From Rhizophlyctis rosea (lineage: Eukaryota; Chytridiomycota; Chytridiomycetes; Rhizophlyctidales; Rhizophlyctidaceae): DNA of 64,000 nt. Shown one piece after another: positions 1 to 64,000 of the stretch (positions are counted from its first letter, which is position 1; each line of letters opens with the position of its first letter). Below the pieces are notes generated by a model. It saw only the letters and a list, made by a program, of their open reading frames with translations, was not told the origin of the DNA and did no database searches. The position numbers were made by a program, and so were the translations under genes. The stretch is from positions 80,513 to 144,512 of the forward strand of contig JADGJC010000081.1 of the NCBI GenBank assembly GCA_027596075.1. Reading direction: 5' to 3'.

Positions 1-2633
1 CCACCGCTTGGGCCATCCTTCTCCTCATCTCCCTCTTACTAGTCATTCTCCTAACGAGTTATTACCTACAACTGAAGAAGATTCGCGTTATACATGAGAC
101 TGTCGTGTCGATCGTGTTGGGAATGGTGGTTGGGTTGGTGGTGCACTTTGCTATTACGAAGCGAGGTGAGGATGGTGGATGGTGCTTTTGCGTCTGTGCC
201 TCTTGCGCGAGACCATGGACATGGCATGCTGATGCCCCAAAACGTCCAAACATTCAACATATATGTTCTTGTTTACGCTATAGTCGAAGGGATAGAGCAA
301 ATGCTTCACTTTGACCATCGTTACTTCTTCAACCTTCTCTTGCCGCCCATCATTCTGAATTCTGGATATGACATGAAGCGAGTAAGGAAAACTAAGCTCG
401 CATGTGAACTCGAATGCCATGTTTGACCTCCGCATCCTGCAGAAAAGCTTCTTCCGCAATTTTGGTAGCATTTTAACATTCGCGCTGCTGGGTACCATGA
501 TATCCACCATCGTCATTGGGTAAGGCCAGGAGCTGAATATTGCTGCAGGTGGGCATGCATTGGCTAAAGTTTGCCATTACCCATCGCAGGTTTTTGGTAT
601 GGGTAGTTATAAAATTCCTAAATGCGGTCCACTGGTACCCTGTCGACCCGATTGAGATGGTCTTTCTGGACTGCATTGTTTTTGGAGCCATTCTATCGTC
701 AACGGACCCAGTCACAATTTTGGCTATTTTTCATCAACTCAAAGTGGACCCGAAGTTGTATGCCATCATTTTTGGGGAGAGTATCCTCAACGATTCAGTA
801 GCGATTGTCCTATTCGAGTAAGTTTGCATGCGGGAAAACAGTCAATACAGTTGATGTTGACACCCATATTTAGAACATTAGGACAATTCCGAGACCGCCA
901 GCTGACATTCGGCAACTTGCTTCACGGAGCGGCCACGTTCGTAGCAATATTCACCGGCTCCGTCATGGTCGGCATCATCATAGCCCTTATATGCGCTCTC
1001 ATGCTCAAACATTCTCAACTACATCAATACCCCGCACTGGAAGCTTGCATCATCACGTTGATGGCGTACGCGTCCTATCTACTATCCACGGGCATCCAAC
1101 TATCCGGCATCGTATCACTACTTTTCTGTGGAATCACGATGAAACACTATGCATATGACAACATGAGTGTGCGAAGTCGGCGCACAACAAAGTATATGTT
1201 CCGGGTACTTTCGCAGCTGAGCGAAAACTTTGTTTTCATCTATTTGGGGGTGGCGGTGTTTACAAATACGAAAGAGGTGTATGCTTGGGGATTGATTTTC
1301 TTCACTCTGGTAGGATGAAATGGCTTTATTATCTTAAGGGCCACAGACGTACTCATTGCATCGTTTTTAGATAATCTGTCTTGTTGCGAGATACGTCTCT
1401 GTTGTGCCTTTGGCAATGGCCATCAATGCCATCAGCAGACGCATCCACGGAACCAATCGTGATGAGATTCCTCGCAATCATCAGCTCATGCTTTGGTGGG
1501 CCGGTTTACGTGGAGCAATCGCCTTCGCGCTGTCGTTCCAAGTGAGCGCTAAAGCCGGTCAAATCATTCGACCAGTCATCCTGGTAGTCTGCATCGTGAC
1601 GGTCATTTTGTTGGGTGGGACGACGAATCTTGCATTGACGAGATTGAAAATCCGTACGGGGGTCGGGCACAAGGCGGAAGAGGAAGAGGACGATGACGAT
1701 GATGCGGAGGATACGGATTCCAGCGACGACGAGGCGGAGGATTGGGATGACGATTTGCCGGGAGCGCAGGCGGGACGGACTAGACAATATAGGGGTAGAG
1801 AGGGGAGAGGGGTGTTGGATGGGGGTGGAAGTCCGGGGAGTGGGGTGGAGACGCCCGATGATGACGATGTGAGGGTGCAAGTTGATTCACGAGAGGTACA
1901 TAGATCGCTTTGGGACGAGGATATGTCGCATTGGTTCATGAGCTTTGATAATCGGTGGTTAAAGCCTCTATTTACGAGGTCGAGGTCGCGGAAATGGAGA
2001 TGGGGAACGCCGACGCAGGCTGGGTCGCGAAGTCCGACGCGGGAGGGGCTTTTGCCTAGGGAAGAGAGGAGGGGAAGTGGAAGAGCGTTTGGGGTTGGGG
2101 CTCAGCCTGCTGCGGCGAAAACGGGGCGTGCGGGGCGGGGTGGGGCTGGTTTGGGGCAGAATCGGGGTGGGTCATCAGCCGCGGCGGGTGGACGACAAAC
2201 GGGTCAGAATTCACCAACACCCGCAGGTCGCGCCAGTCGTTTTGGGACTCAGATTCAGGGGGAGACGGCCGCTCGGTCCCCCACGACGGGCGGGAGTTTT
2301 GCGTTCGGTTTCAAACAGCAAGCACAGAAAGGGACGGGCTCGTCAAAGCCGGGGCGCAACAGCTTGGACGATGATGAGTCCTTCCAAGATGTCAATGGGG
2401 ATGTTTGGGCTAGAGGACCGCAATCGCCGGGAAGAAGATTTAGTGGGAATGTTGCTGTTCCTGTGCGGCCGTTGTCACCGGCCGGACCTGGGACGCCCGG
2501 ACCTGCCGTGGGAACACCTGGCGGTTTGGAGCTTAGTGGGTTGAATGAGGGCAGGGGTGGGAATGCAACTGATGGTTTGCGTGGGGGTACGTCTGGCGGT
2601 TCGAGTGGGCTAAACTTGTTTGGGTTGGAATAG
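1..2633 (+). CDS. Na+/H+ exchanger, endosomal NHE/NHX type (5' partial)
   Basis: This is a cation/proton antiporter of the CPA1/NHE family, expected in endosomal or vacuolar membrane, exchanging Na+ or K+ for H+. The gene enters the window already in frame (first full codon at base 3, inside a membrane helix). Exons carry the NHE landmarks [15 protein letters not shown] (about 330-370), [16 protein letters not shown] (about 685-735) and [18 protein letters not shown] (about 765-818), then further helices to about 1620. The middle motif is closest to the organellar NHE6/7/9-NHX1 branch. Introns with GT..AG ends lie near 166-285, 379-435, 521-590, 819-873 and 1319-1370. After the last helix comes a cytosolic tail of about 330 residues. 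It starts with an Asp/Glu run (1675-1760) and continues Gly/Ser/Arg-rich, which is unusually long and of low complexity. The N-terminus lies outside the window. Confidence 0.9.
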
Positions 2634-3939
2634 TGTCAATAGCATTGCTTCTAGACTGGCGGTGTCTATACATTTGTACAGGATAGGTATCTGTTTCTTT
2701 CTCTTGTCGGTTTTCTTCCATAAATAGTGTAAATAATGCTATGGCCCTTTTTTGTGATTCGATTGGTATCTGAAAATTGATGCAGCAGCAAGAGTGAACA
2801 CGTGCTGTGGTTGAGTGCAGTCATTAGCTGCATTAGCTGAGGGTGTCTTGGCTTTCGGAGGGCTCTGATGGGCCAGGGTCCGCAGCTGGCTTGACGTCAC
2901 GACTGCACGCGTGAGTCGGAAGCGCAGTGCCAGACCCCTGCAAAAGGCAGTCTGTCAACCCTGTTCCCCTGTCATGGGTCTTCTTGGCGTGGAAGGAACC
3001 CGGGATACGCCGCGTTCCGCCTCTCAGTCAAAAACACTTCATCATTACCACTTACTATTATGGAACGTGGCTTCCACATAAATACACTCCTTCGGTACGT
3101 GTAGTCCCGCTGCGCATGACTGACTATTCGAGCAGATTACTATATCAAAAACCGATACCGTGAACCGAAGCAAGTTCAACGAGGATCGTTCCAAGTTTTC
3201 ATCACGGTTTGATAGGCACCTACCAAAGGTGTCGACTGCTCCATAAGTACAGTACGACCCATCGGTCATATAATCACCTGCTCCTCAAATTATTTGTTTA
3301 CATTCATCTTCTGGGTCATAACTCGGTTTTTTCGGTATGGTATTTTCTGGTCTTATCGTCACCCATTGAGACCCTGACCAGCTTGCTTTATCTGTACGCT
3401 TTTACCTGTTCGTTAGAACGAAACCCTCCGCTGCATCTCTCTTGGTTAAAGTCGTGACTATCCGTATTTTCGCCTCAGGTAAGGGTGCAGACAACGCCGT
3501 TATGCGCTATAGTATGCATACGGTATCGGTTTAGGGATTTGACTTTGTGGTGTGAACCTGAGTGAAAGTAACAGACTTCCCATTGCCGCTAAAAGATACA
3601 AAAATGTTTGCCAAGAAAGGCACTTGGAGGTGCATTTCCAGACACACGACATTCCCACACTCACTACCTCTACTATATTAGACCCCTCTTTCCCACACTT
3701 CCGCCCACATAATCCGCTAAGAGTCCCTCACCGCGGTTACAAAACACTTTTCACACATTCTCTGAATGTCATTTCCCATATCGAACACTCAACTCCACTG
3801 AACGTGAGTCACGCCTTTACCCCATCCCATGTAAGCCGAAACGGCTGTCATCTTTCCCGTGTTTGCCAATGCATGTTGCTTCATGAAAACCAGATTTCAC
3901 ACTCTTGTTCTGCGGCCTCCATAAGTTCTTGAACCAACC
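2634..3939. other. Intergenic spacer, no gene recognised
   Basis: Between the exchanger stop and the trehalose phosphorylase start there are only short overlapping frames without recognisable protein character. The stretch just after 2634 is the 3' UTR of the exchanger (AT-rich around 2700-2740). The right end should hold the promoter of the phosphorylase gene, but no convincing TATA element or operator was seen. Confidence 0.5.
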
Positions 3940-42494: not shown

Positions 42495-44137
42495 TCAATG
42501 TCCCATCCCCCTTCGTTCCCCCGGTCCGCTTGCCCCCGGCCCAACTATCCACGGATGCCTCAAAACCATATCTGCCGTCGGCCGTCTATCCCCCTTCTTT
42601 TGCAACATCCAGTCCACTAGATGCATGCACTGATACGATACTCGATACCGTGGTGACTTGTATGTGTTTCGCGTGGCCTGCTCGGAATTGGCGAATGGGA
42701 CTTCCCCAAATAGGATCGTATACTGCAATGCATGGTGGATTAGACTTTGTTGCTTGTCCCATTGTTCCAAAATATCCGGACCATACCCGGCAACAACACT
42801 TACCAGTAGAATACCCAATGCCCATATATCCGCCTTCCGACCACTATACTTCTCACCCCTCAGTATCTCAGGACTAGCATACTGTATCGTGCCTTGGAAC
42901 CGGTCAAAGAGATAATCGCCTCCATTGCCGCTTTGCCCCGCACTCGGATCCGCCTTCGGCTCGACCGTGGCGCTCCCAAAATCGATCAACTTGGCATTGA
43001 AGTTCTTATCAACGATGATGTTCTCATCCTTTATGTCTCGGTGCACGATGCCTCGGGTATGAAGGTATGCGACGGCTGATGCTATTTGCTGGAAGATGTG
43101 GCGTGCTGTGTTTTCGGGAAGGCGGTCATTGCGTTCGATACATCTGCGGTTTTCAAGATTGGTCAACTTCATTTCGGACGATGAGAGCTGATCTTGCGAT
43201 CGAGAAGACACGTACTCGAATAAATCCATTGAGGGTTTTCTCAAAAGCCGTGGCGGCAACGGCATCGTTTTACTCCTCATCATTGGTGGAGGGGATAAAT
43301 CTTCCTCAGCGCCGCTCGGCGTTTCTGGTCCATGTTCGCCGTTTGAATCGCTGTTCCCGTTAAGCGCATGGCTAGAATCCCCGTTTGGTCTATTCTTCTT
43401 CTCCGCATCCACCCCATTCTCATTTTGTATCCGCGCGACCGCCGGATGTTGCCCTAGTGCGCCCCCTCTCCCGTTTGCCGCTATCGGATTCCCGCCGTCC
43501 CCGTAATCATGTTCCATCCTCGAGTCCCTTTTCATGCCAGCGACTTTCCCAACATGTCGTCCCCCATGCATCTCCATTACGAGGTAATAGAATCGTGCGT
43601 CTTCGTAATAATCTATGAACCCCACAATATTATCGTGTCTACAGTGTTTCAATAGGTAAATTTCCATCGGCACAACGCCGAAATCTCTATCGCGAGCCCA
43701 TAGCGGGGGTACACGACTCTTCAAAATGAACTTCACAGCGACTTCCAAAGTGTCGGTCACGCGGACAGCCCCAACCACAAAGCCAAACCCGCCCGACCCA
43801 AGCTCCGATTGGAGCGTGTAACGGGCAGTGAATTGCTGATTGAGTGGATGCCTCGAAAGCAGTCGTTGTGTAGGGGAGAGAGTAGTGGTCGCCTGTCGGT
43901 TGGCGTTCGCGTGAGGTAGCGGGGACTGGAACGGTGACTCGAGGCGGGCGGCCAGTGTGCTACTTTGGTCAATTTGAACAAGCTTTTGTGAGTTTTGACA
44001 GACAGTAGGAATGATCGCCGTAAGGGAGTAGACTATCAGTACGGATTCTGGAAGAGTGTTTTCGTGATGCGGGAAGCTTGTTAAATAAGCATAGGGCCAT
44101 ACTACATACCCAAAGCTCCTATAAGATGTCTGCCCAT
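42495..44137 (-). CDS. Ser/Thr protein kinase related to PAS kinase (PSK/PASK), no PAS domain
   Basis: PAS kinases tune sugar partitioning and translation in fungi. Three exons: 44137-44110 (MGRHLIGAL), 44047-42804 and 42722-42495. The first intron (44109-44048) joins MGRHLIGALE to SVLIVYSL; the second (42803-42723) is 81 nt and open. The N-terminal 95 residues have no visible PAS fold. Kinase motifs: YTLQSELGSGGFGFVVGAV (glycine loop), EVAVKFILKSR (beta-3 Lys), FYYLVMEMHG (hinge), GIVHRDIKDENIIV (catalytic loop), AKLIDFGSATV (DFG), FQGTIQYASPEIL and DIWALGILLYTILFGEVPF. RDIKDEN with the GTIQYASPEIL loop is PASK-like. About 110 residues of Asn/Gly/Ser/Pro-rich insert lie between the hinge and DLFEYVSSR. 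Other CAMK-group kinases are not excluded. Confidence 0.85.
42723..42803 (-). other. 81-nt intron without stop codon in the kinase gene
   Basis: The intron starts GTAAGTG after ...GILL and ends TTGCAG before YTILFGEVPF. It is 27 codons long with no stop, so retention would insert 27 residues (VSVVAGYGPDILEQ...) into helix F of the kinase and still be translated. Kinase homology shows removal is needed for a normal fold. Confidence 0.7.
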
Positions 44138-44189
44138 ATGAAATGAATACGGTGGGAAGACTGGGAAGAGGGGAAGAGAAGAAGTGACA

Positions 44190-51228: not shown

Positions 51229-52506
51229 TCACTTCCTACATACAAAAACCACGTTCACAAAATCATCCTTCCTCGCAAATTCCTTGATATTTCCAAACCC
51301 TGCTTCCGTTAACATGCTCCTCGCAAGCTGCTTTCCCCACATGGTTCCCAATCCCGCTCCGCCCTCCGCCAAGCTGACCGTCATGCAGTGGCACAAGCTG
51401 ACCGTGTAGAGCCAACTGCCCAGCGGATTGGCGATGTTCTGTTCGGGTGAAGAGTTGCCTCCAATATCTTGCATTAGGAATGTTCCGTTTGGGCGGAGGG
51501 CATCGTGGATTTTGCGGAGGGCGGTGGTCGGGTCGGCTTGGTCGTGGATTGCGTCGAAGACGAGGATCAGGTCGTATTGGGCGGTTGGAGGAAGTTTGCA
51601 GTTATCTTCGACTTTGTAAGTCACATTGGGGAGGTCTGATGAACATTTCATAAGTATCGCGAAGCATCGCAAGAATTCGTCTTTTTGCATTACTCTCAAC
51701 GTACTTTCCCCTTCCAACCCAGCGTTCGCCATGTCGATTGCCTCCTGGCAAATATCGATACCCGTGAATCGACTGTTCGGAAACTCTTGCGCGAGCAGTT
51801 TCGTCGGCCGTCCCGCCCCACACCCAATCTCAAGTATGTCAATCCCGTCACGCAGGCGTTGCATCATTTCCTCTCCGATGTTGGGCAAGATTTCGGGGAT
51901 GATGAAGGGAAGCAGATTCTGGATCCATGCCAATGACGATCAAAAATAAAGTGTAAGCCAGCTTGACTATTGCGGAGCCAGCAAGCTTTTGCCTCACCGC
52001 AGAACTCATCTCGCACATCGCATCATGAAACCTCTGCCCGAACTGCCCGTAAGACACCCCTCCACCTTCCTTGAAACACCGCATTATCCTTTCTTCTTGT
52101 TGGGCGCTCATGACACTGAACTGCGCGCTGAGGGCGAAGCGACTGATGATGGGTGCGTAGGAGGGATGAAGGTGGTACGTTTGGGTGGACGGGGTGTACA
52201 CCACCATCTGAGTAAATGAACGAAAAGGGTCTGAACGCGCGGTAGGCAAGGGTGTGCAGTTTGAGAACGGAAAACTGCAGTAGCCCCTACCTGACTGGAC
52301 ACGAGTCCGTTCAACCATTCTCTCACGTACCGCTCATTGTACTTGGCCTCCTCAGCGAGCTTCTGGGAGGTTGCAGGGCCGTTGCGTTTCAGAATGTCGA
52401 ATAGGCCTAGGCGGTAGCCGATGGACAGGAGCACAGACTGGGCGCCGAAATTTACCACGTTTAGGAGGTGCCCAACGGCCGCTGGGTCTGTTTGAGGAGT
52501 AGACAT
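51229..52506 (-). CDS. SAM-dependent methyltransferase, Rv2258c-like with winged-helix N-terminus
   Basis: The protein should transfer methyl groups from S-adenosylmethionine to a small molecule in the cytosol. Exons: 52506 to about 52293, about 52201 to about 51990, about 51915 to about 51690 and about 51634 to 51229. The joins SSQ/MVVYTPSTQ, EMSSA/NLLPFIIPE and EGE/NLPNVTYK keep frame. The N-terminus is helical with a winged-helix look (GLFDILKRNGPATSQKLAEE). The class I methyltransferase core has DILEIGCGAGRPTKLLA (motif I), SRFTGIDICQEAIDMA (acidic loop), YDLILVFDAIHDQADP (motif IV) and LRPNGTFLMQDIGG (motif V/VI). Domain order and the AIHDQADP segment resemble Rv2258c-type and related proteins of bacteria and some eukaryotes. 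The substrate is unknown. It is divergent from the giant membrane-protein gene (835 bp spacer). Confidence 0.85.
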
Positions 52507-53340
52507 CTCTTTGGCTGATGTTTCTGAGAAAGGCTGCCTTGGAAAAGGAGGTTGGTGTCTGGGATGGGGTTCTGTGGTTTGTTTCGAGAATGCGAAGCCA
52601 GTGAGTGGAGCACAGGGTGGAGCAAATTCACAACGGGTCTCAACAGCGTCTCAACACCATCTGACTTTGGGTCCTGGAACACCTGGCTAGCCCCTGGCTA
52701 TCGGCCAGAATTGCCTCGGTGGCTTAGTCCACGTCCAAAACCACGCAAAACCACATGGATTACATCATCATATGACGTGGCACGCATCAGTGTGACTGTC
52801 AACTGTGTGAGTCACGGGCCTGAACGTCCTTACCTATTTGGGTCAATTGGCCCAGTTCTTTAGATTCGAATGCATCGGTACTCTGTTAGCTTACACTTTC
52901 TCAACCTTCGCGCAAGCACAACGTACACCGTCCGAACAGTTGGTAAATGCATTCATTATAACAGCGCTGTGCACCATGAGGTTTAAGACTAGAGTATGGC
53001 ATCTTCTAATTCCTTCCAGTGTCGCGAGGGTCCTAGAGTTCCTAGTTTAGTTAGTTCCGAACTTCCCGACTTCCTCCTACTAGTCCCATTGTAACCGATA
53101 GCACAATCAATAGCATGTAAAGCAAAAGCTGAGCGAGACTTTCCCTGTTGTTTGTTCACACCATAACACCTAGTACATTTCCGGCAAGGCTCGATCAGGA
53201 TCGATCAATTTGAGAGCGTGGTGGTGCTCCGATTACGTCAGCGAATAACTTCTTGTCTTCTACCGATTTGCAAGTCTTCATATTCCTCAGACTACCTCAT
53301 TATTCCCTTGTGTTATTCCTTTCTTTCATGGAAGTACAGG
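52507..53340. other. Divergent promoter region
   Basis: Spacer between the methyltransferase (-) and the giant membrane-protein gene (+). Short frames only. No clear TATA element or repeated operator was seen. Confidence 0.45.
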
Positions 53341-56300
53341 ATGAGCACTGCAACAGATGCTCCCCAGCCATCGCAGGACGTGGCAGTGCGAGAGGGAGGA
53401 GGACGTGACAGCGAAAGTCCCTTGACTCCAGATGTAGAAAAAGCACGGAAGGCATTTCGAAGCGCTCGGACGATGTCCGATATGTCGCTTAGCTCCCTGT
53501 ATTCAAAACCAAAAGCATTAGCATCTTGGATGAGGGGAGGCAAAGCGTCGTCGAGACGTTCTAGCAACGCTAGTTCCGTGCACACCGCTGACGGTCAGTC
53601 AAACTCTCAACCAGCCTTTGCGGATGTAAAAACCTTTGATTCGCGCAAGGTTCGGAGCTGGGCGATGTTTCGTGGGACTGCTGCATTGGATCTGGTGACG
53701 GGGGCGGATGAGTGGAAGGGTGTTGATTTGCTAGTGGTTGGGTTTGACGAATTGAGACGAGTTCATCTTGGCATCGGTGGCGGGGAAGTTGATTCCGGAT
53801 GGCATGCCACTTCTGCCAGCACCGGCTCCCCCAATAGTATGTTCAGTACTTCGGGGGAGGGCAACGTGTGGTCCCCTCAGACCAAGCCGGCGCAATTTTC
53901 CGTGGGGGCGGAGTCCGATGCGGAAAGTGATATTTCGGTGAGTAGCGTGCTGCTTGGCACGCATGATCGCTTCCGAACTAATCTTATCAAAAGTCTGAGA
54001 TGCTCTCGACAGATATGCTTGTCCCTAACCACGACAGAAGAGGCAGCATCTTCAGCAATCACTCCGCACGTAGTACACACCTAACACCAATAGCACACGT
54101 TCGAAGCCAAAGCACCTCGGATCTTACAACGCCCTTCTCTCCCCTATCCCCTCGTGCTCCACCCAAGAGCAACCTTCGAATGTCCAAATCCTCAGAAACG
54201 CTCAATACGGCAAGCAAGCCCCGTTTTCCATGGATACCCCGCTCCCGCTCCTCTCTGTCCCTATCTCAACAAGGCCTCGTCTCACCATCCGCTCAAGCAA
54301 CTCCATCCTCCACCAGCTTCCGCCGCATCATAGCCGCCCGTGTGAAGTACCTAATTGCATCCATCGATTTGAATGCCCTGTACACTGTGTATGATGCGTC
54401 TCGTTCTGCCGGATCATCATTCACAACGTATGCAATGAAGTACTTGGCGGAAGGGTTGAAGGAGATGCCGTGCACACTTGCAGGCGTCCTTCTGACGGGA
54501 TTGAAGCCAGTAGCAGAAACGCGGTCAAGTGGTAATTCAGGACTGGTCAAATTTGTGGACGCACTGCGGGGAGAAAAGGAGGAAGGATGGAATGTGCCGG
54601 TGGTTTTGTTGGACGAGTATGGGTTGGAGATGTGGGCTGACGTGAGGGATAAAGTTAATGGTATATTGCTCGAGAACCTATTCTTCAAACCGGATGGGAC
54701 CGAGGTTGTCAGATTCGGGTGAGTTTTGCGCGAGGCTAGGGTCCGTAAGGAATTCTCGAATATGTTGTTTACAGCTACAACCTTTACAGACCAGACCGTG
54801 CTACCTTTGATGCTCTTACCAAGAAAGTTTCACTGGAGGTATCGCTGCGCATTGACTTTGTAGTCCTTGATCGCGAATCTCTCTCCATTCCATTACGCAC
54901 ATTGAGCGCTGCCATCATCCGGCGATATGTTCAATGGCATCGGGGTCTGAGCATTGTCGGATGGTATACGCGGCGGGAGGTCTCGGCCGACGGTGCATCG
55001 CGGCGTCCAAGCATCAAAGCCTTTGGCAATTTCGAGGAGCTATGTCCTATCGGCTTTGATGAGCTAGGAGACGATAGTATCTTCGAAATGGCCACACAAG
55101 CGGACATTGTGGAATGTCGGAACATGGTGCAGGATATCGTTGCCAGGATGCGAGCCACCGGTGTCACACCAGATGGGGTTGAGCGAAATATTTGGAAAGG
55201 ACTTCTTCATGAGCAAAGCGATATCCCGCGGGGTTGGGTGGATGATCTTGTTCCCAATTTGTTTGATAAGGATGTGGGAGCGTCGGTCATTGAGAAGACA
55301 ATGTTGAAAAAACCGAAGCCGCCTGATCCGCCGAGTTTTTACACTATTTCAGACGTTGTTGAGAGCATGAAGCATGTGGAAAGACCTTCCATTTCTGATA
55401 GAACAAGCGGTCGCGTGGAGGGACCTGTCAGTATGAACCATTTCGGGTACAGTTATGGCACCGGGCGGCGGAAAGAGGTCACAGCGGTTGTCACCGGCGT
55501 CATGTTTGACCTGCTGGAGAAGAACCTCCTTGCCTCTGCCCAAACCAATGTTGATGCTGGTGGTCGGCAGCAGCAATCAACACCAGAGTTCAGCTCCTTG
55601 TTGAACGTCCTGTCGCAAATATCTCAACATCCCACCAACGCAACCCGCTGGATACTGGGTCTATTCGGAACAGATAGGAAAAAGGAACTATTGAAGGGAT
55701 TGGTATCATTACGTGAAGGCCTGGACGCTGAACGCATCAAAGTATGGCTCCCCACAAAGGCAGCTTTCCAAACAGGAGTAAAGACGGATCTGCCTTACGA
55801 CAACATGTGGGGTATTGCGGAGGAGAAGGAGGGACGGTTGCATCTATTCATACAGAACACGATTCCGGATATATCTGAGGCGGTTTTGCATCTGTATTTC
55901 AAAGAGCGATTGGGATGGACAACCGGTGAATGTGTCCTTGTTGAAAGTCTTGTCAGGTGAGAAACCAGAGTGATTGTAGCGTCCTTGAATTGTTCTAACC
56001 GATCGTTGTCGTGTAGTGCTCAAAACCAAGCCAAATACGACATGCTCATAGCAATACCATCTCGAATGGTCGTCCAGGTGGAGCAATCTTGTCCATCGGT
56101 CCAGTTAGACTATGTCAGAGAAGAGCCACGAAAGCGCAAAACTCTGTGGACGGATGGTTACCTAACCGCGGATGGAGCAGGATATCTGATCAAGCTTGCC
56201 GAACATCTTTCCTTGCTTGCGGAATTTCGACTAATTCAACATGAACGTAAGTCTCATAACGCAAAGACTCTTTCTGACTCCATGACTAAGTGTTCCTCCT

Positions 56301-59300
56301 CTAGAGTATATGGATGAGATGAAAAGTGCAGCGGCAGAGGGATACGCATTTCGGACGAAACTGGAGGAGAAGATGGGGCTATTGGTTGGAGAGTGCACAC
56401 TGTCCATACAGGGCTCACAACGTCTCCTCAACTTCGCACGCGGCATAAGCTCAGAGATTCGCAAACGTGGCGGCGCCGTCCCGTCCAGTCCAATGCTAGG
56501 AGGACCAGTCGAAATGTGGGCACTCTGCTACTTATTCTCAGCATTCTGGAAAGCCTGTCGGTGGTGTGCATTCCAGGAGTTGGAGGTATCCCTTCAGAGT
56601 AAGAACCCGGCATTACTTCCAGAATCCGATCAGGCGGCAGTGAGCATTGAGATGACCACAACCGCCAGCACACTCGCCACAATCTTCGATTTGACGAGTT
56701 TGCAGCTTAGCTTAGCGCTGCACCCGAGGTTGCGGGAGAGGCTAAAACGTGAGCGACATGCGGTAGCCAAGGCGGCAGAACTTGATGCGCAAACTCCTTC
56801 GCTTGACAATGATGTCGAGGATTCGAGTACCATCGCATTTAAAAAGAGCATTGCCAATGCATACATTTTCGTTTATCCTATCCTGCTGGATATCATCCTC
56901 ATTTTGGCCATCGGGTGCGGGATCTTTGCAGGTGATGCGGGCCCCGTTGTGCAAGAGATTACTAGTTTGGTATTTTTAGGTAATGTGCCAAATGGACTTT
57001 ATGCTTAATGATTGGCCGACACTGACCTGTTGCCTGTGTAGTAATGTTCCCAATCATTGGGGCAGTTATCAATTCAATCGGGAGGAGTGTCACTTATTAC
57101 TTCTATCAGAAGAGCATTCCTCTCATGATCGCCACATTCTATCGACGGCTGACGGCCGCTATTGTCATTTTCACCTTTTGGGGATTGGTTTTGGGCATTG
57201 TAACATATTTTACGAAGAAGGATCCTGTATATGCAATTTTTGCTTTTTTGTATGCTGTTGCTTTTGCGTAAGTGTTCAATTACTGCCTCCAAACCCATTC
57301 ACTGGCCCGCTCACACTTGTTCTTTTCCATTTTAGGTTCTACATGTTGTTTTTCTCCACACTGTTGATTCTACGTAACCCCGATGACTACTTCTACAAAT
57401 CGGCAGGCCCTATTGCCGTCTTGAAAAGTGTTGCTCTGTTGGTGGTGAACGCCTTCATCGTCAGTTTCGTAGTGCTCGATGACGACTTTGCGGTTCCTCA
57501 CCGGGAGCTCCTGGTTTGGGGATTGTATATAGCCTGTTTGTTTATAGCTACTGGATATATGTTATTCTGTTTCACGCGGATCACCGCCGAATACCTTCGC
57601 TGGCCAAAAGCCGTCTCGGTTACCCCCAAAAGCGAAATTTTGGCGCTTTACGAGAAGATTGAACCTCGGCCGACCAGCACAGTGGAGAGCGATGTAGAGA
57701 AGTTGGGCCGGATGAAACGAAGATGGGAACGGTCGGCGACGGAATGGTTTAGTAGTGAAATGCTGAGCGCCTTGCGGGACGTGACCGGGACGGCAGATCT
57801 GGATCCTATAGTGCGGAGTAGAGCCAGTCAGTGGTTCTGGGAGAACATGCTTATGAAATGGTTTTTGGAACGCTCTGGGATTGAAGCACCCAAAGCCTTC
57901 TCTTCAGAGTGGGACGGGGTACTCAGACAGGGCCTTGCAGAGTTGAAGAAGAAGTTCCAAGTTGAGAAGATGAATCGGGGGGACATCCTTTTCGCGAATG
58001 AGTGGCCAGCAATTACTTTCGGATTTTTGTACTTCGTGTTGATCTTCGCTGATCGATGGAGTATCCTTCTTGTGTCAGGCAAAGCGGTATCCTTCTTCCC
58101 CACTGAGCAGATTAGTGACGAGTACATGTACGGCGGCCTGACCAGTGTTATATTTTTGCTGCTTGCTTCGGGGTTGTTGGAGCTAACCCTGACGCGATTC
58201 TACACTGCACACCGACGAATCTCCATGACCACGCTGGCCGAAAGTAAGACCCCGACAGATGTTTTTGAGCGGTACCGACAGTCACTTCAGAGATTATACA
58301 ACAAGGAGCTGGGCATATTTGTATTATATGCGATGCCTATCTTCATCATTACAACTGGAGCCCTCAGCATCTATGCCTGGTATACCCGATTGTACTACAT
58401 CCTGCAAGTGTATTTTATCTCGGCAATAGGTTACGTCGGGCTCCTAGTCGGCTTGTTCCAAAAGCTTTTCATTGCTCAACAAGAATCTTTGGTTAACACT
58501 TGGTTAGCGGTGGGCAACGTTGTCAGTATCGCGGGGACCGGTGCTGCTATTCTCTTGTTTGAAGAAGATGAATACGGAATATTTGCTGGTGCGGTCTGCG
58601 GATGGCTCTTTGCCTTTGCTTGTATTGGATCTCGCTATTTTGAAAAACACCAGAGCGTTCATTATCGAGTTCAAATTAGTAAGTGGAGTGAGATTTTCCG
58701 TACGAGATTGGAACTGATCAAATGTCAATGTAGCTCCTGCTTTGACATCTTCGGGTCAACGTCTGATTGGACAGAAGCATAATGATGCAATAGAAGAAGC
58801 GCGTAATCAATATGCACAATCTTTATACTCCGCCCGGAAGAAGCCCATGCACCCGGGATCTCCGGTCGGTCAGCGCATCAAAGATTATCTCGAATCCGCC
58901 GCCGACATGGTATCACTCATGCCACCAAACCACATCTTTCAAACCGCCCTATCCGTCTCCCGCTCCCTCATGGTGGTGATATCGAACAGGTTTGGAAATA
59001 AAGAAGTCCTCGTTTACAAGATGAAGGATCTGTTGCAATCCGGGGGGTGCAGCTACTCGGCCATTTCCGTGCAGCATACAGGACAGAAGAAGACAAATCG
59101 CCAGGAACTTCATGTTTTTGTGTCGCCATTGACTGGGGCAACGGATGCACCGGAACTGGAGGGTACCATTCTTGCGGAGGCGCTTGTTCATGAATTCGTT
59201 GAAAGTGGCGGTCTATCTCACGCTAGTGGATGTGTGGCCGAATGCGTTTTGGCGGCGTGTGGGCCTCAGCATCGTCAGGATGGGGCAGGAGTTGCGGATG

Positions 59301-62300
59301 TGATTCCAGAGCGCATCAAAATGCAAATTCGTGCAATGGGACATCATGAAAAGCAGGCCATTAGACTGAGGACCCGGGAGATGTTGATCGAAAAGACCTC
59401 ATTCGGCGTGGAGGTTGATTGTCGATGGCACAGGGAAGGTGGAATGCTACCGGAAGATCGGCAGTTTATGGTTCAGTTGGCGAAGATCTGGTGGGCGGTA
59501 TTTGAAGAAGTTCATAATGTAGGTTCACTGTAGCTTGTTGACCAATCTAGAGACCCACGCATTGACTCGCACGTTATATATATTAGACAACATTTTTTCC
59601 ATCTCACTTCGCCGAATTTGTGTCCACCGCGCCACAGAGTTTGTTATCAATCATACGAGGCAAAGGTCCGCCCAAAGCGTTCACGGACATTAAAACACAT
59701 GCATCACAATCCATCATCTTGGCGGCACTTGCAGTCAGTATACAAAAATTTTGTGCGGAACAATCATCTCCTCGGATACGCCATTCGCCTTTACGCACCT
59801 CCCTTTCCGAAACGTTTGCAACACAACCGCCATTTTGGAGGCGGCTCTTCCATGCCGCTCTCAACAGCAGGGTTTACATTTACCTCGCCCTCATAGCCGA
59901 CCCCCGTCTTGGACGCGAACTTTCACATCACCCACCTCTACCCCTCCGCCTTCCCTTGGCCCTCCTTCACAAATTCACCCGGTTTCTCCTCACCGCTATG
60001 CATGATCATTTGCTCCACACTCAAAACCACAGTGTCAACCTCATGCTGAAAGAGATGAATCGCGGATTACGTCGCATCCACCATATCGGGGATGGCGGGG
60101 GCCATGCAGTCACGGTTGAGACGTATCATGGAGTCATGTACACCACGATTGGGGTTGTACGGGACAGCGCCACTGACGGCCAAGAAGAAGAAGGTCGAAG
60201 CAAAGATGGCGGATATGTAATAGTTGATCGGTATAAAATCACCGGTGCAAAACCTGCCAACTGGAAACCAGGTCCTGGCGCTGAATGCGTTGGCAGAGGC
60301 TTTTACCGGCGCGTTGAGGGAGGAATGAATTTACGATTGTCACACGAAGAAATCCTCAACGCTATAGGAGAAGTGATGAGAACACACATTTACAAGTACA
60401 CGGATGAGGGAAAGAAGGAGGATAGGATCCCATTTGCCAGATTCATTTTTGAAGGACGCGTGGATGCTGATCAATGGTTAGCGGGACAGTACACACAGTC
60501 CAAAGCGCTTCAGGTACAAACACTTACGAAGAAAGGAAACGATGTAGTCGTTACAGAGTCGGTGTGGAGTACGTTACATAAGCATACGAGGGAGCCAGCT
60601 AGAATCAATGCAACACATACATATATGGAGAAGGACCCTGAAGGTGCCCAGATATCCGCTCAATTCCGAGCAAGCCTACCAGTACCTTGGACTATGACGG
60701 TACACTATGCACGGCTGTCGAAAGGGAACGGTGTCAGACCAACACAAATTGACTACTCAGAGGAGCCGGACGACGTGCAGTACACAACAAGATACGACTA
60801 CTCCCATCCAAAGCACGTTCAAATTAGTACCGTAAAGTTCCCAATTGGAGAGCCTGACGCGGCTCTCAAAGCTCCAACTCCGACTGCAATATCCGAAGAC
60901 GTATACGGCGTAATCTTTGAACCTTCTCCGCCCTCACTATTCGAAAGCTCTGACTTCTACATCTCCGGCATGAAGTCCGTTTCCTTCCGACGCTGGTCTT
61001 GGCGATTCCCATTCGTCAGCCTCGAACGTAAATGGTTCTATGACCAGGCTTACACAGCACTTCGCAAACGGGAGAACTTGTGGGCGTCCTGGCGTCGCGG
61101 GGAACTGGCTGGAGTATTCGCCATGGAGCTGGATGAGCGCTTCTTGCGTGATGAACCCTTGTTGAAAGCATATTGGCGGAAACGTGATTTTGGTGATGTG
61201 AAGGGTGCGAAGGCGGTTCTCAAGGATAATAAGCAGAAGCTGAACGCGGAACTGCAAGTGACGGATCGGCCACTTACGAGAACACATTTGCAAATCCGGT
61301 ACTCGGATCTTTATGTGCTGGGGGTTGGAGGAGATGCGCATAAAGTGTTTGCGGGACCGGATGCAGAAGAGGACAAAGGAGAGCTCATGGCAAAAGCAGC
61401 TTTGGCAAGATCTCAAACAGTGTCGTCCAACTACCTGCAACTTGTCAACGTAGACAGCGGCACATGGCCGACATCCGGTGGAGGAGTAGGTTCATGTCGT
61501 CGTGACCTGATCGCCGGCCTTACCCGATTCCGGTGGAGCGCAATCGCCGAAATTGGCACGGCGGAGCTCGTTCAACAAGATTACCCCATTGAGCAACACA
61601 TCAACTCCATCATCTACTTACCGCTGTGGGATGTGGACTTTGGCAATCCCAGCGAGAACGTGTACCGCACCATTCCCTACCAGACTCTCAACCTGAAGGC
61701 CCGAAATACGACCACCCACGTCGTGAACGAGACATTCGTTCCCTTAATTAAGAAGCTGATTGAAGGATGCTTGAAGACCGAAATCAAGGAAGATGAGATT
61801 GATGGGTTCGTGGATATGTTTGTCGGGTTGCATCACTTCTTTGCTGGATATGATTGGGTGCAAGCATGGGACCACGTTGCAACACAGGAGGCTTGGGTAA
61901 CAACTTGGTTGAACGGAGGGTGGGAGTTGTGGAAGACGGGGCAGTTGGTGGATATCGAAACTCCCACATTACGTCATATAGAGATGCTGTATGACTTGAT
62001 AGCAAGACTGTTGCTGCCTTTGACGGTGAAGATCCCTAAACTCCCCGTAATTCATTCGTCGCATCATGGCGTTCAGGCGGTGATTGGCGTTATAGCGAAA
62101 CGGATTTATGGAAGCACATTCGTAGTCTGGGATCACGGCATTTTGTGGAGAGAGAGGTTGTTTGCACTGTGTTTTGATGAGAACATGCCAAGATTTGTGC
62201 AGATTGGGTTTGCGGGGTTGACCAGGCTGGTCACGAGAATCGTTTTTGCCAAGTAAGTCATAGAAGACGGATATTTCCATTGTGACATCATGGCTGACGC

Positions 62301-63261
62301 TTTCTTCAGCGCCGACTGTATTACACCATGCACGAGCATCCAAAATGTCGCATGGGAAGCTTGGCTCGGTGGAGGTAGGACAACTTCTCGATTCGTCGTC
62401 ACGATTCTGTATATATTAAACATAATTTTTGATTGACCACCAGGCAAATACAACTCCCTCTCCGCCTCACACTCAATTTTCACACGCACGACGCCCGTCC
62501 TGAACGGCATGGATGTCACCAAGTTCAAACCCAATCCCTCCGCAACGCCCCCAACACCAACAGCCATCATGCTCTCCCACATCTCGCCGGTCAAAGACGT
62601 CCTCAACGCTATTTCAGCCGCCAACATCCTCATCAATACTTTCCACCTCACGTCCTACCAGCTCCACATCTACGGCTCCGTTGACAAAGATCCTTCATAC
62701 ACTGCGGAATGTGAACGCGCCATCGCCAATTGGGGCCTTGCAGACAAGGTTATCATGAAAGGGTTGGGAAGTCCAAGCAAGGTGCTGCCGACAGGATGGG
62801 TGTTTGTCAATTCATCAATCACGGAAGGTCTGCCGCTGGCATTGGGAGAAGCTGGATTGTGTGGACTGCCGGTTGTATGTACAGATGTCGGAGGCAGTAG
62901 GGAAGTTATTTGGGATGTGAGAACTGGAGAAGTGTGCGGTGCGATAGTTCCGCCCAGTAAGCCGATGCAGCTGGCGTTAGCGCAATTGAGGGTGATGGCT
63001 GTTGCGGATGGGGTTGGGAAGTGGGTAGAGGGTGGAGTTGAGGACGTCACGCTTGACTCGCTGCTGGTGAAACAAGGAGCGTTAGAGAAAAGAGTAATGG
63101 ACCCAGATGTTGGGAGGGTCAGACGTGAAATCGGAATGAGGTTGCGGGAAAGGATCATGAGCGTATTTTCTATCAAGCGGTATTGGAGGGAGCATGAGCA
63201 AGTTTGTTGGCTAGGTCCGCTATACGAGAAACAGCTTCAGGTAGCTGAGGCTGTGAAGTAA
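53341..63261 (+). CDS. Giant multipass membrane protein: PelG-like transporter part fused to PelF-like GT4 glycosyltransferase
   Basis: Eleven exons: 53341-53926, 54013-54718, 54775-55956, 56017-56246, 56305-56979, 57042-57267, 57336-58678, 58734-59518, 59587-62252, 62310-62374 and 62444-63261. They total 9282 nt, exactly 3094 codons (3093 residues). Residues 1-250 are Ser-rich and disordered; about 260-1080 is cytosolic with alternating strands and helices (VVLLDEYGLEMW, VNGILLENLFF, LRIDFVVLDRES). From about 1085 to 1640 there are about 12 membrane helices split 6+6 by a 140-residue loop. Helix 7 reads FGFLYFVLIFADRWSILL, like the 'WADK' helix of PelG. A cytosolic part of unknown fold (1650-2650) follows. 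The last 400 residues are GT-B: HSSHHGVQAVIGVIAKRIYG, FVVWDHGILWRERL, NGMDVTKFKPNP, SITEGLPLALGEAGLCG and PVVCTDVGGSREVI. A polysaccharide-making and -exporting role is inferred; the first donor is the weakest junction. Confidence 0.8.
56824..58660 (+). other. Twelve-helix membrane region within the giant protein (PelG-like)
   Basis: Hydrophobic segments in order: IFVYPILLDIILILAIGCG; SLVFLVMFPIIGAVI; AAIVIFTFWGLVLGIVTYF; FAFLYAVAFAFYMLFFSTLL; SVALLVVNAFIVSFVVL; LYIACLFIATGYMLFCF. A charged loop follows, then TFGFLYFVLIFADRW; SVIFLLLASGLLEL; FVLYAMPIFIITTGALSIY; YFISAIGYVGLLVGLF; LAVGNVVSIAGTGAAILLF; GAVCGWLFAFACIGS. Count and 6+6 split suit a MOP-superfamily flippase. The PelG match rests on helix 7 and on the charged FERYRQSLQRLYNKE segment after helix 8. 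Confidence 0.5.
62030..63240 (+). other. GT4 (GT-B) glycosyltransferase domain within the giant protein (PelF/DUF3492-like)
   Basis: The acceptor-side half (from HSSHHGVQAVIG, with WDHGILWRERL) parallels the HS..TG(Y/V)..L..A..G.P....EHGIY..ER pattern of PelF. The donor side carries NGMDVTKF and the E-x7-E type loop ITEGLPLALGEAG that binds the nucleotide sugar in GT4 enzymes. The two Glu are present, so the domain looks catalytically competent. Confidence 0.65.
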
Positions 63262-63922
63262 CCGCGTATGATAAGTAGTGAACGTTGTACATAGAATGAT
63301 GAATTTATAGGGATCTGGGAAACATGGAATCCCCCGACTGTGTGCCACTTATCATCCTCCCTCCCCCTACCCGTCCCCCCTCTGCACCCATTCCCTACCA
63401 ATAATCACTGTTATCATGCACTCAGGGTCCTCCGCTTGGTCGTGAATTTACGACTAGTACAAAGTCTTACCTCTGGGCTCATGAACATGGACTTCAACGG
63501 GTGCCCATCTTTGGTGCACCGGCTTGTAATTTTTCACTCCAGGACCCACATAATGACTCTGATGATTTTGCACCAACAACACACTCCCAACCTCCGACAA
63601 CAACCCCTTCGTCGCACTCCTTCTGACGGATAGTCTTGGAATTTTGTCATGACATCCAGACTTCAAAGTTCACAAAAAGTTCAAACATGCGCACTTCATG
63701 GGCAGTACATGACATATGTGTCCTTGAATCCGTATCGGTTTTGATCCCCATTCGATGTTCGTCGCGCGTTCGCCACAAGCTCGACTCTTCTTTGATACGA
63801 AGAAGGCGTACTTCATCGTCGTCATTCAAGTGATTGGCAAGTTGAAACAGAAATTGATAGGGTTCTGGAAGGTGTGTCGCTTAATGAAGCTTTAGTTTTT
63901 TCCGTCGATTAGCTTTGGTGTG
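63262..63922. other. Spacer after the giant gene
   Basis: 3' UTR and unresolved sequence. One minus-strand piece looks protein-like and is listed separately. Confidence 0.35.
63471..63655 (-). CDS. Candidate internal exon of an unknown minus-strand gene
   Basis: The frame reads KIPRLSVRRSATKGLLSEVG then SVLLVQNHQSHYVGPGVKNY and QRWAPVEVHVHEPRG, followed by a GTAAGA donor at 63470. The amino-acid pattern looks like real protein, but neither the upstream exon (the MNDDDEVRLLRIKEESSLW frame near 63829 is one candidate) nor the downstream exon can be fixed, and the sequence end is 350 bp away. Confidence 0.25.
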
Positions 63923-64000
63923 GGGGGGGGCCCCCCCCCCCCCCCCGCGCGCGGGCGGGGCGCGGGGGGGGGGGGGGGGGGGGGTGGGTGGAGGTGGGGG
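63923..64000. repeat. Poly-G/poly-C homopolymer end, probable sequencing artefact
   Basis: The last 78 bases are runs of G and C with a few GC steps and TGGG. This is unlike anything else in a window of mixed composition. It most likely marks a contig end with low-quality bases rather than a telomere or a real repeat. Confidence 0.8.

Follow-up and report, generated by a model that had tools for sequence, protein, structure and literature searches.

A giant Rhizophlyctis rosea protein as a candidate one-polypeptide synthase-exporter related to the bacterial Pel machine

Does a single fungal polypeptide unite domains that the bacterial Pel exopolysaccharide machine distributes over separate proteins? 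The question is raised by a 64,000-nucleotide stretch of the Rhizophlyctis rosea genome (the window; contig JADGJC010000081.1, positions 80,513 to 144,512), where one gene joins a galactosaminidase-like barrel, two copies of a soluble module on either side of a 12-helix membrane part, a beta-rich domain and a PelF-type glycosyltransferase (GT). This architecture is strongly supported, and the product is likely to be a one-polypeptide, membrane-embedded synthase and exporter of a polymer of the N-acetylgalactosamine (GalNAc) type, homologous to parts of a Pel-type machine. From homologies, predicted folds, domain order and the breadth of the family, we infer its enzymatic activity, substrate, transport direction and topology and the roles of barrel and modules. 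Residue numbers refer to a 3,086-residue version of the protein, except in the Pfam scan and the first homologue search, which used a 3,076-residue version. The features are as follows.

53341..63261, + strand: whole gene, 11 exons, best model 3,086 residues (joined open frame; NCBI homologue P0001, 97%)
53341-53937, 53994-54718, 54775-55956, 56017-56246, 56305-56979, 57042-57267, + strand: exons 1-6
57336-58678, 58734-59518, 59638-62252, 62310-62374, 62444-63261, + strand: exons 7-11
53623..55252, + strand: (beta/alpha)8 barrel of GH114/GH166(PelA)/GH191 type, residues ~95-600 (AlphaFold2 (AF2) model of homologue P0018, VIA-align, profile match)
55415..56720, + strand: module A, first copy of the duplicated soluble module, residues ~655-1050 (hhalign)
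56838..58665, + strand: 12 membrane helices (6+6), residues ~1090-1655, predicted MOP-flippase fold, PelG-related
57583-58005, + strand: soluble insert of ~140 residues inside the membrane part
58678..60009, + strand: module B, second copy, residues ~1660-2045 (hhalign, residue counts)
59189-59221, + strand: HExxExxGxxH motif in module B, residues 1812-1822
60022..61374, + strand: beta-rich domain, residues ~2050-2500 (strands in the AF2 model of P0018)
61402..63210, + strand: PelF-type GT4 domain (DUF3492 + GT4), residues ~2510-3070 (Pfam, hhalign, NCBIfam, residue counts)
62824-62850, + strand: E-x7-E motif of GT4

An earlier reading made from the sequence alone (the sequence-only reading) had assigned the C-terminus to PelF/DUF3492-type GT4 enzymes, and profile searches bear this out. 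First, PF11997 (DUF3492; residues 2521-2793) matches the window protein at E 6e-11 with 43.1 bits, against a curated cut-off of 23.3, and GT4 (residues 2840-2988) is recognised by PF13692 (E 3e-16) and PF00534 (E 3e-15), both domains lying over the Pfam cut-offs. Second, PF11997 is present at E<=1 in all 16 homologues scanned; NCBIfam PelF also matches in 16/16 and is the top family for homologue P0003, although its 83.4 bits there do not reach the equivalog cut-off of 100 bits. Third, hhalign aligns the C-terminus with seven bacterial PelFs across 315 columns at E 1e-41. In an alignment of 44 rows, both glutamates of E-x7-E are kept in 43 (E2942, with a gap in the remaining row, and E2950), and K2865, the lysine of the ISPVKD motif, is kept in all.

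The membrane part was likewise read correctly as 6+6 helices with FADRW in helix 7. Profile hydropathy over the 44 rows places helices 1-6 at 1106, 1140, 1185, 1215, 1249 and 1280 and helices 7-12 at 1447, 1488, 1549, 1577, 1610 and 1635, and within FADRW D1451 is found in 44/44 rows and W1453 in 38/44. In the AF2 model of a homologue, this part shows a 6+6 MOP fold like that of MATE, MurJ and WzxE flippases. Its kinship with PelG runs through bacteria: the fungal membrane part matches transmembrane genes adjoining bacterial pelF (best E 2e-13), the profile-profile comparison with this bacterial transmembrane family gives E 1e-12, and the family itself matches PelG at E 3e-11, with sub-cut-off PelG Pfam matches in 3/4 of the bacterial proteins. 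The sequence-only interpretation is, as a whole, partly supported. Its single protein, PelF-type C-terminus and PelG/MOP-type membrane part stand, but the link to PelG runs via bacterial intermediates and predicted fold, as a direct PF16933 (PelG) match was not obtained.

For the N-terminus and the centre the sequence-only reading had recognised no family. It had overlooked the barrel and the duplication of a module; for the modules and the beta-rich domain no family was found here either. VIA-align of the AF2 barrel model of P0018 returned alpha-galactosaminidase-like structures in its top nine rows. Against 4,375 bacterial open reading frames (ORFs), the profile of residues 300-600 matched a GH114 at E 5e-5 and a wider N-terminal profile gave a match at E 0.001; direct hhalign of the barrel with GH114 sets was weak (Prob 0.1-21). 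By model and profile, the barrel has a galactosaminidase fold of the GH114/GH166/GH191 kind, interrupted by a long, poorly conserved insert (residues ~150-300, from column occupancy), with both catalytic positions lost. At the two columns placed by alignment to bacterial GH114, which we take to hold the catalytic Asp/Glu pair of GH114-type enzymes, D occurs in 0/39 and E in 3/38 non-gap rows. Barrel profile matches were obtained in 39/45, 12/57 and 0/105 proteins of three homologue sets, so that in Dikarya the barrel appears to be lost or too diverged. Modules A (before helix 1) and B (after helix 12) are copies of each other according to hhalign (Prob 97, E 1e-10, 302 columns). The motif of module B keeps H, E, E and H in 44/44 rows and G in 42; a motif of this type occurs in 45/45 proteins of the first homologue set and in 13/157 of the later, mostly Dikarya set, and therefore a general metallo-function is not claimed. 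Neither the modules nor the beta domain found a match among the 4,375 bacterial ORFs, and no Pfam family was found for the beta-rich domain in the window protein. Apart from GT families, no Pfam family occurred at E<=1 in more than one of the 16 homologues (best single match DUF6789, E 3e-4), and a PDB sequence search returned nothing below E 0.27.

Genes for polymer processing occur in the same genome (44 Mb, 634 contigs searched). GH114 gave seven matches, on contigs C443 (two places), C17 and C54, Agd3_CE eleven, on C618, C201, C458 and C323, and GH135 one, on C603; among 14 control genomes GH114 was found in two and the others in none. These are the processing kinds of fungal galactosaminogalactan (GAG). 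Bacterial pelF loci offer a parallel. In a Bacteroidetes metagenome-assembled genome (L012), Paenibacillus (L024), Tumebacillus (L028) and Thermus (L005), pelF is accompanied by a transmembrane gene under the PF16933 cut-off. These clusters resemble the fungal protein in combining PelF with a PelG-like protein, but as separate genes, and their transmembrane protein has its own N-terminal region of ~100 residues, unmatched in the fungal protein. Like the fungal genome, L012 and L005 hold a GH114 gene, and L005 an Agd3-like one as well. The gene before pelF in L005 matches Agd3_CE with 30.0 bits (over the cut-off) and CBM87_Agd3 with 26.9 (just under), its Streptomyces counterpart (L009) had no Pfam match, and a homologue of one or the other is present in 56/87 pelF loci. 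Loci of Thermus, Deinococcus and Streptomyces (L005, L008, L009 and L011) carry after pelF a many-helix protein that PF16933 does not recognise and that is related to PelG through a larger bacterial set. With the Agd3-like gene, such loci are possibly an undescribed Pel/GAG-like bacterial operon, a point on which no literature search was made. L012 also holds, at L012:7754-8935 and L012:12164-13795, a second DUF3492 GT directly before pelF and, after the transmembrane protein, a gene with an HD domain resembling cyclic di-GMP phosphodiesterases.

In the mechanism that we propose, a cytosolic C-terminal PelF-type GT4 would polymerise a nucleotide sugar, most likely UDP-GalNAc, and the chain would leave via the 12-helix MOP-type domain fused to it. 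The barrel at the N-terminus, its catalytic positions lost, would probably bind the chain or regulate the enzyme, and separate secreted enzymes of the Agd3-type deacetylase, GH114 and GH135 kinds would then process the polymer. Several results weigh against this interpretation. PF16933 has no match at E<=1 in the window protein, in any of the 16 scanned homologues or in the R. rosea genome, and direct hhalign of the membrane part gives Prob 0.4 with three PelGs and Prob 2-5 when four Deinococcus-type proteins are added to the PelGs; those four alone score Prob 0.2 with PelG and match it only in larger sets. Foldseek alone finds MATE for the membrane-part model only at E>0.001, and for the barrel model generic barrels, none at E<=0.001; the barrel profile of residues 95-600 has no match among the bacterial ORFs, and the structure models are those of a Neocallimastix homologue, not of the window protein. 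A GT4 position that is Arg in 7/7 aligned bacterial PelFs is His in 44/44 rows here. Finally, the processing genes lie on other contigs, with no GH114, Agd3_CE or GH135 match listed on C615 or C633. As direct hhalign is too weak alone for membrane part and barrel, intermediates and structures are needed for both assignments.

Among other explanations, a fused GT and flippase for glycolipid or glycoprotein intermediates, which would glycosylate and flip a lipid carrier rather than extrude a long polymer, has the matching folds of MurJ and WzxE, both flippases of lipid-linked sugars, in its favour. We regard it as unlikely, however, since the closest bacterial relatives adjoin pelF, in some loci with GH114 or Agd3-like genes, which is an exopolysaccharide setting, and since the chain carries a barrel of polygalactosaminidase type. 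Still less probable is an active GT whose MOP part serves only as anchor or sensor while the polymer exits by another route: no result favours it, and against it the membrane part is matched in 203/207 homologues (45/45, 55/57 and 103/105 in the three sets) and the helix-7 aspartate is invariant in the aligned rows. The likely synthase-exporter reading agrees with the earlier expectation of a fungal protein that would make and move an extracellular polysaccharide; the suggested zoospore-cyst role is not supported. Aspergillus, Penicillium and other Dikarya, which are not known to form zoospores, have homologues, and a zoospore-specific function was dropped on this ground.

The family is far larger than one chytrid gene, a breadth that the sequence-only reading had not noticed. 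Searches with the window protein, P0042 and an Aspergillus homologue returned 45, 101 and 439 proteins (120 of the last among the matches listed), and 207 were fetched; the first search, with residues 1600-3076, had a weakest hit of 603 bits, a similarity that places homology far beyond chance. Sources include chytrids, the rumen fungi with Neocallimastix, Gonapodya, many Ascomycota, the basidiomycete Naganishia, the brown alga Pylaiella littoralis, Sphaeroforma and other ichthyosporeans; the codes CFRG, Ihof and Clim presumably stand for Creolimax, Ichthyophonus and Corallochytrium. Five domains were found in 167/207 homologues, in the same order in 167/167, and six in 51, in the same order in 51/51, when order was scored by the strongest matching stretch of each domain (on spans that also took in weak side matches it was 9/39). 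That two adjacent genes were wrongly joined by hand is hardly credible, given the agreement of splice phases at all junctions, this constant order and P0047, a TRINITY transcript ORF labelled complete, whose 4,408 residues hold all six domains. By these sequences, the architecture is widespread and more than a chytrid oddity, and its proteins are unnamed or domain-named in the sources. In the wider PelF-domain tree, a 100/100 branch separates 63 giant-protein rows from seven chosen bacterial rows, and by this tree the family is probably old; both PelF trees (that of 70 bacterial rows and a wider one) carry the program's long-branch warnings, and therefore no bacterial donor is named. Two homologues have further fusions in one gene model: P0048 with PH and RhoGEF domains, and the protist P0052 with Agd3_CE, which is matched at E 6e-31 within the first 1,008 residues and precedes the synthase domains; this may be a real fusion or a joined gene model.

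The gene model itself confirms the single protein. Joined at GT..AG junctions, the 11 exons form one open frame, which stood as claimed, but the earlier count of 3,093 residues gives way to 3,086: 12 of the combinations tried at ambiguous splice sites are open (3,076-3,103 residues), and the 3,086-residue version concurs with the NCBI model P0001 at all three ambiguous junctions. The gene is R. rosea HDV00_011968 (P0001, 97% identical over the searched region). P0001 starts ~165 residues later than the joined model, and its helices 2 and 12 are missing parts that are present in P0003 and other homologues. The genome holds a second copy (contig C633, protein P0004) with 47% identity over residues 660-3078 and 33% over residues 93-644. 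Contamination as the source was rejected in view of the introns, the chytrid relatives and this second copy. As to the neighbourhood, pieces of a divergently oriented methyltransferase gene (51229-52650, - strand; S-adenosylmethionine methyltransferase and Rv2258c-like winged helix-turn-helix domains) lie upstream, a protein kinase exon (PF00069, E 5e-56) lies at 42495-44189 (- strand), and long homopolymer runs of G/C (63920-64000), likely an assembly artefact, close the contig just past the synthase gene.

Relatives across fungi and some of their protist kin suggest that a fungal coat sugar and bacterial Pel have a common ancestry. A fuller scenario, for and against which we see the balance as even, is that GAG-type synthesis in eukaryotes goes back to a Pel-like operon of bacteria. 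Its genes for hydrolase-, flippase- and GT-like proteins would have fused into one in early opisthokonts or before; the hydrolase would have become a cytosolic domain without catalysis, and a new module (HExxExxGxxH), which may bind metal, would have been duplicated around the pore. If so, the Pel/GAG resemblance would be due to ancestry, although the available parts of a 2016 paper argue that fungi and bacteria reached these pathways by convergence, leaving bacterial transfer open (PMC4817252). Common ancestry could also explain why the PelA hydrolase cuts GAG, as the accessible text of one report states (PMC8647848). Pel-type polymers would then be expected also in chytrids, in rumen fungi and among the unicellular kin of animals. 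A single chain with PelF, PelG-like and PelA-like domains provides a homology-based model for making and moving such a polymer in eukaryotes, and the family names residues for testing. In the open-access literature, outside which most subscription papers lie, we found no statement that the fungal synthase is homologous to the Pel machine; DUF3492 was not found in connection with fungi (one Fusobacterium mention), and the available parts of open-access papers naming both Gtb3 and PelF do not state their homology.

Three known systems invite comparison. Ags1, the fungal alpha-1,3-glucan synthase, has a GT of family GT5. It is also one polypeptide, with an expected 12-helix pore-like domain and an extracellular domain like GH13 amylases, according to the sections available (PMC7329490); the R. 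rosea synthase shares the single chain and the 12-helix part and differs from Ags1 in that GH13-like domain and in the type of GT. Gtb3/GT4C of Aspergillus fumigatus (AFUA_3G07860) is described, in the portions available, as a putative, uncharacterised transmembrane GT that would both polymerise the GalNAc/Gal polymer GAG and export it (PMC8647848; PMC7329490), and its deletion depletes GAG (PMC8566572, seen in part). Compared by description, both are putative transmembrane GTs and exporters of a GalNAc-type polymer, and a candidate identity of the R. rosea synthase with Gtb3 is attractive. The A. fumigatus homologue P0114 belongs to the family; identity levels speak against the Aspergillus homologues being Gtb3, as a Metarhizium and an Aspergillus protein of the P0114 type are 58% alike, whereas 28% is given for MrGtb and Gtb3 in the text available. 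A synthase with GH114, Agd3 and GH135 is close to the fungal GAG cluster as far as the accessible parts of its descriptions go (PMC4817252; PMC8647848; PMC8224951; PMC7329490; PMC6753227), whereas the R. rosea processing genes are found on other contigs. Unlike the bacterial Pel machine (PelF GT4, PelG MOP flippase and PelA GH166 hydrolase/deacetylase), the fungal chain is a single polypeptide without a direct PF16933 match, its barrel is N-terminal, is predicted to lie in the cytosol and lacks the catalytic pair, no deacetylase domain was found in the chain, and its duplicated modules and beta domain belong to no matched family. With that machine it shares three homologous or related domains, the helix-7 motif of ADK/ADR type and the E-x7-E of the GT.
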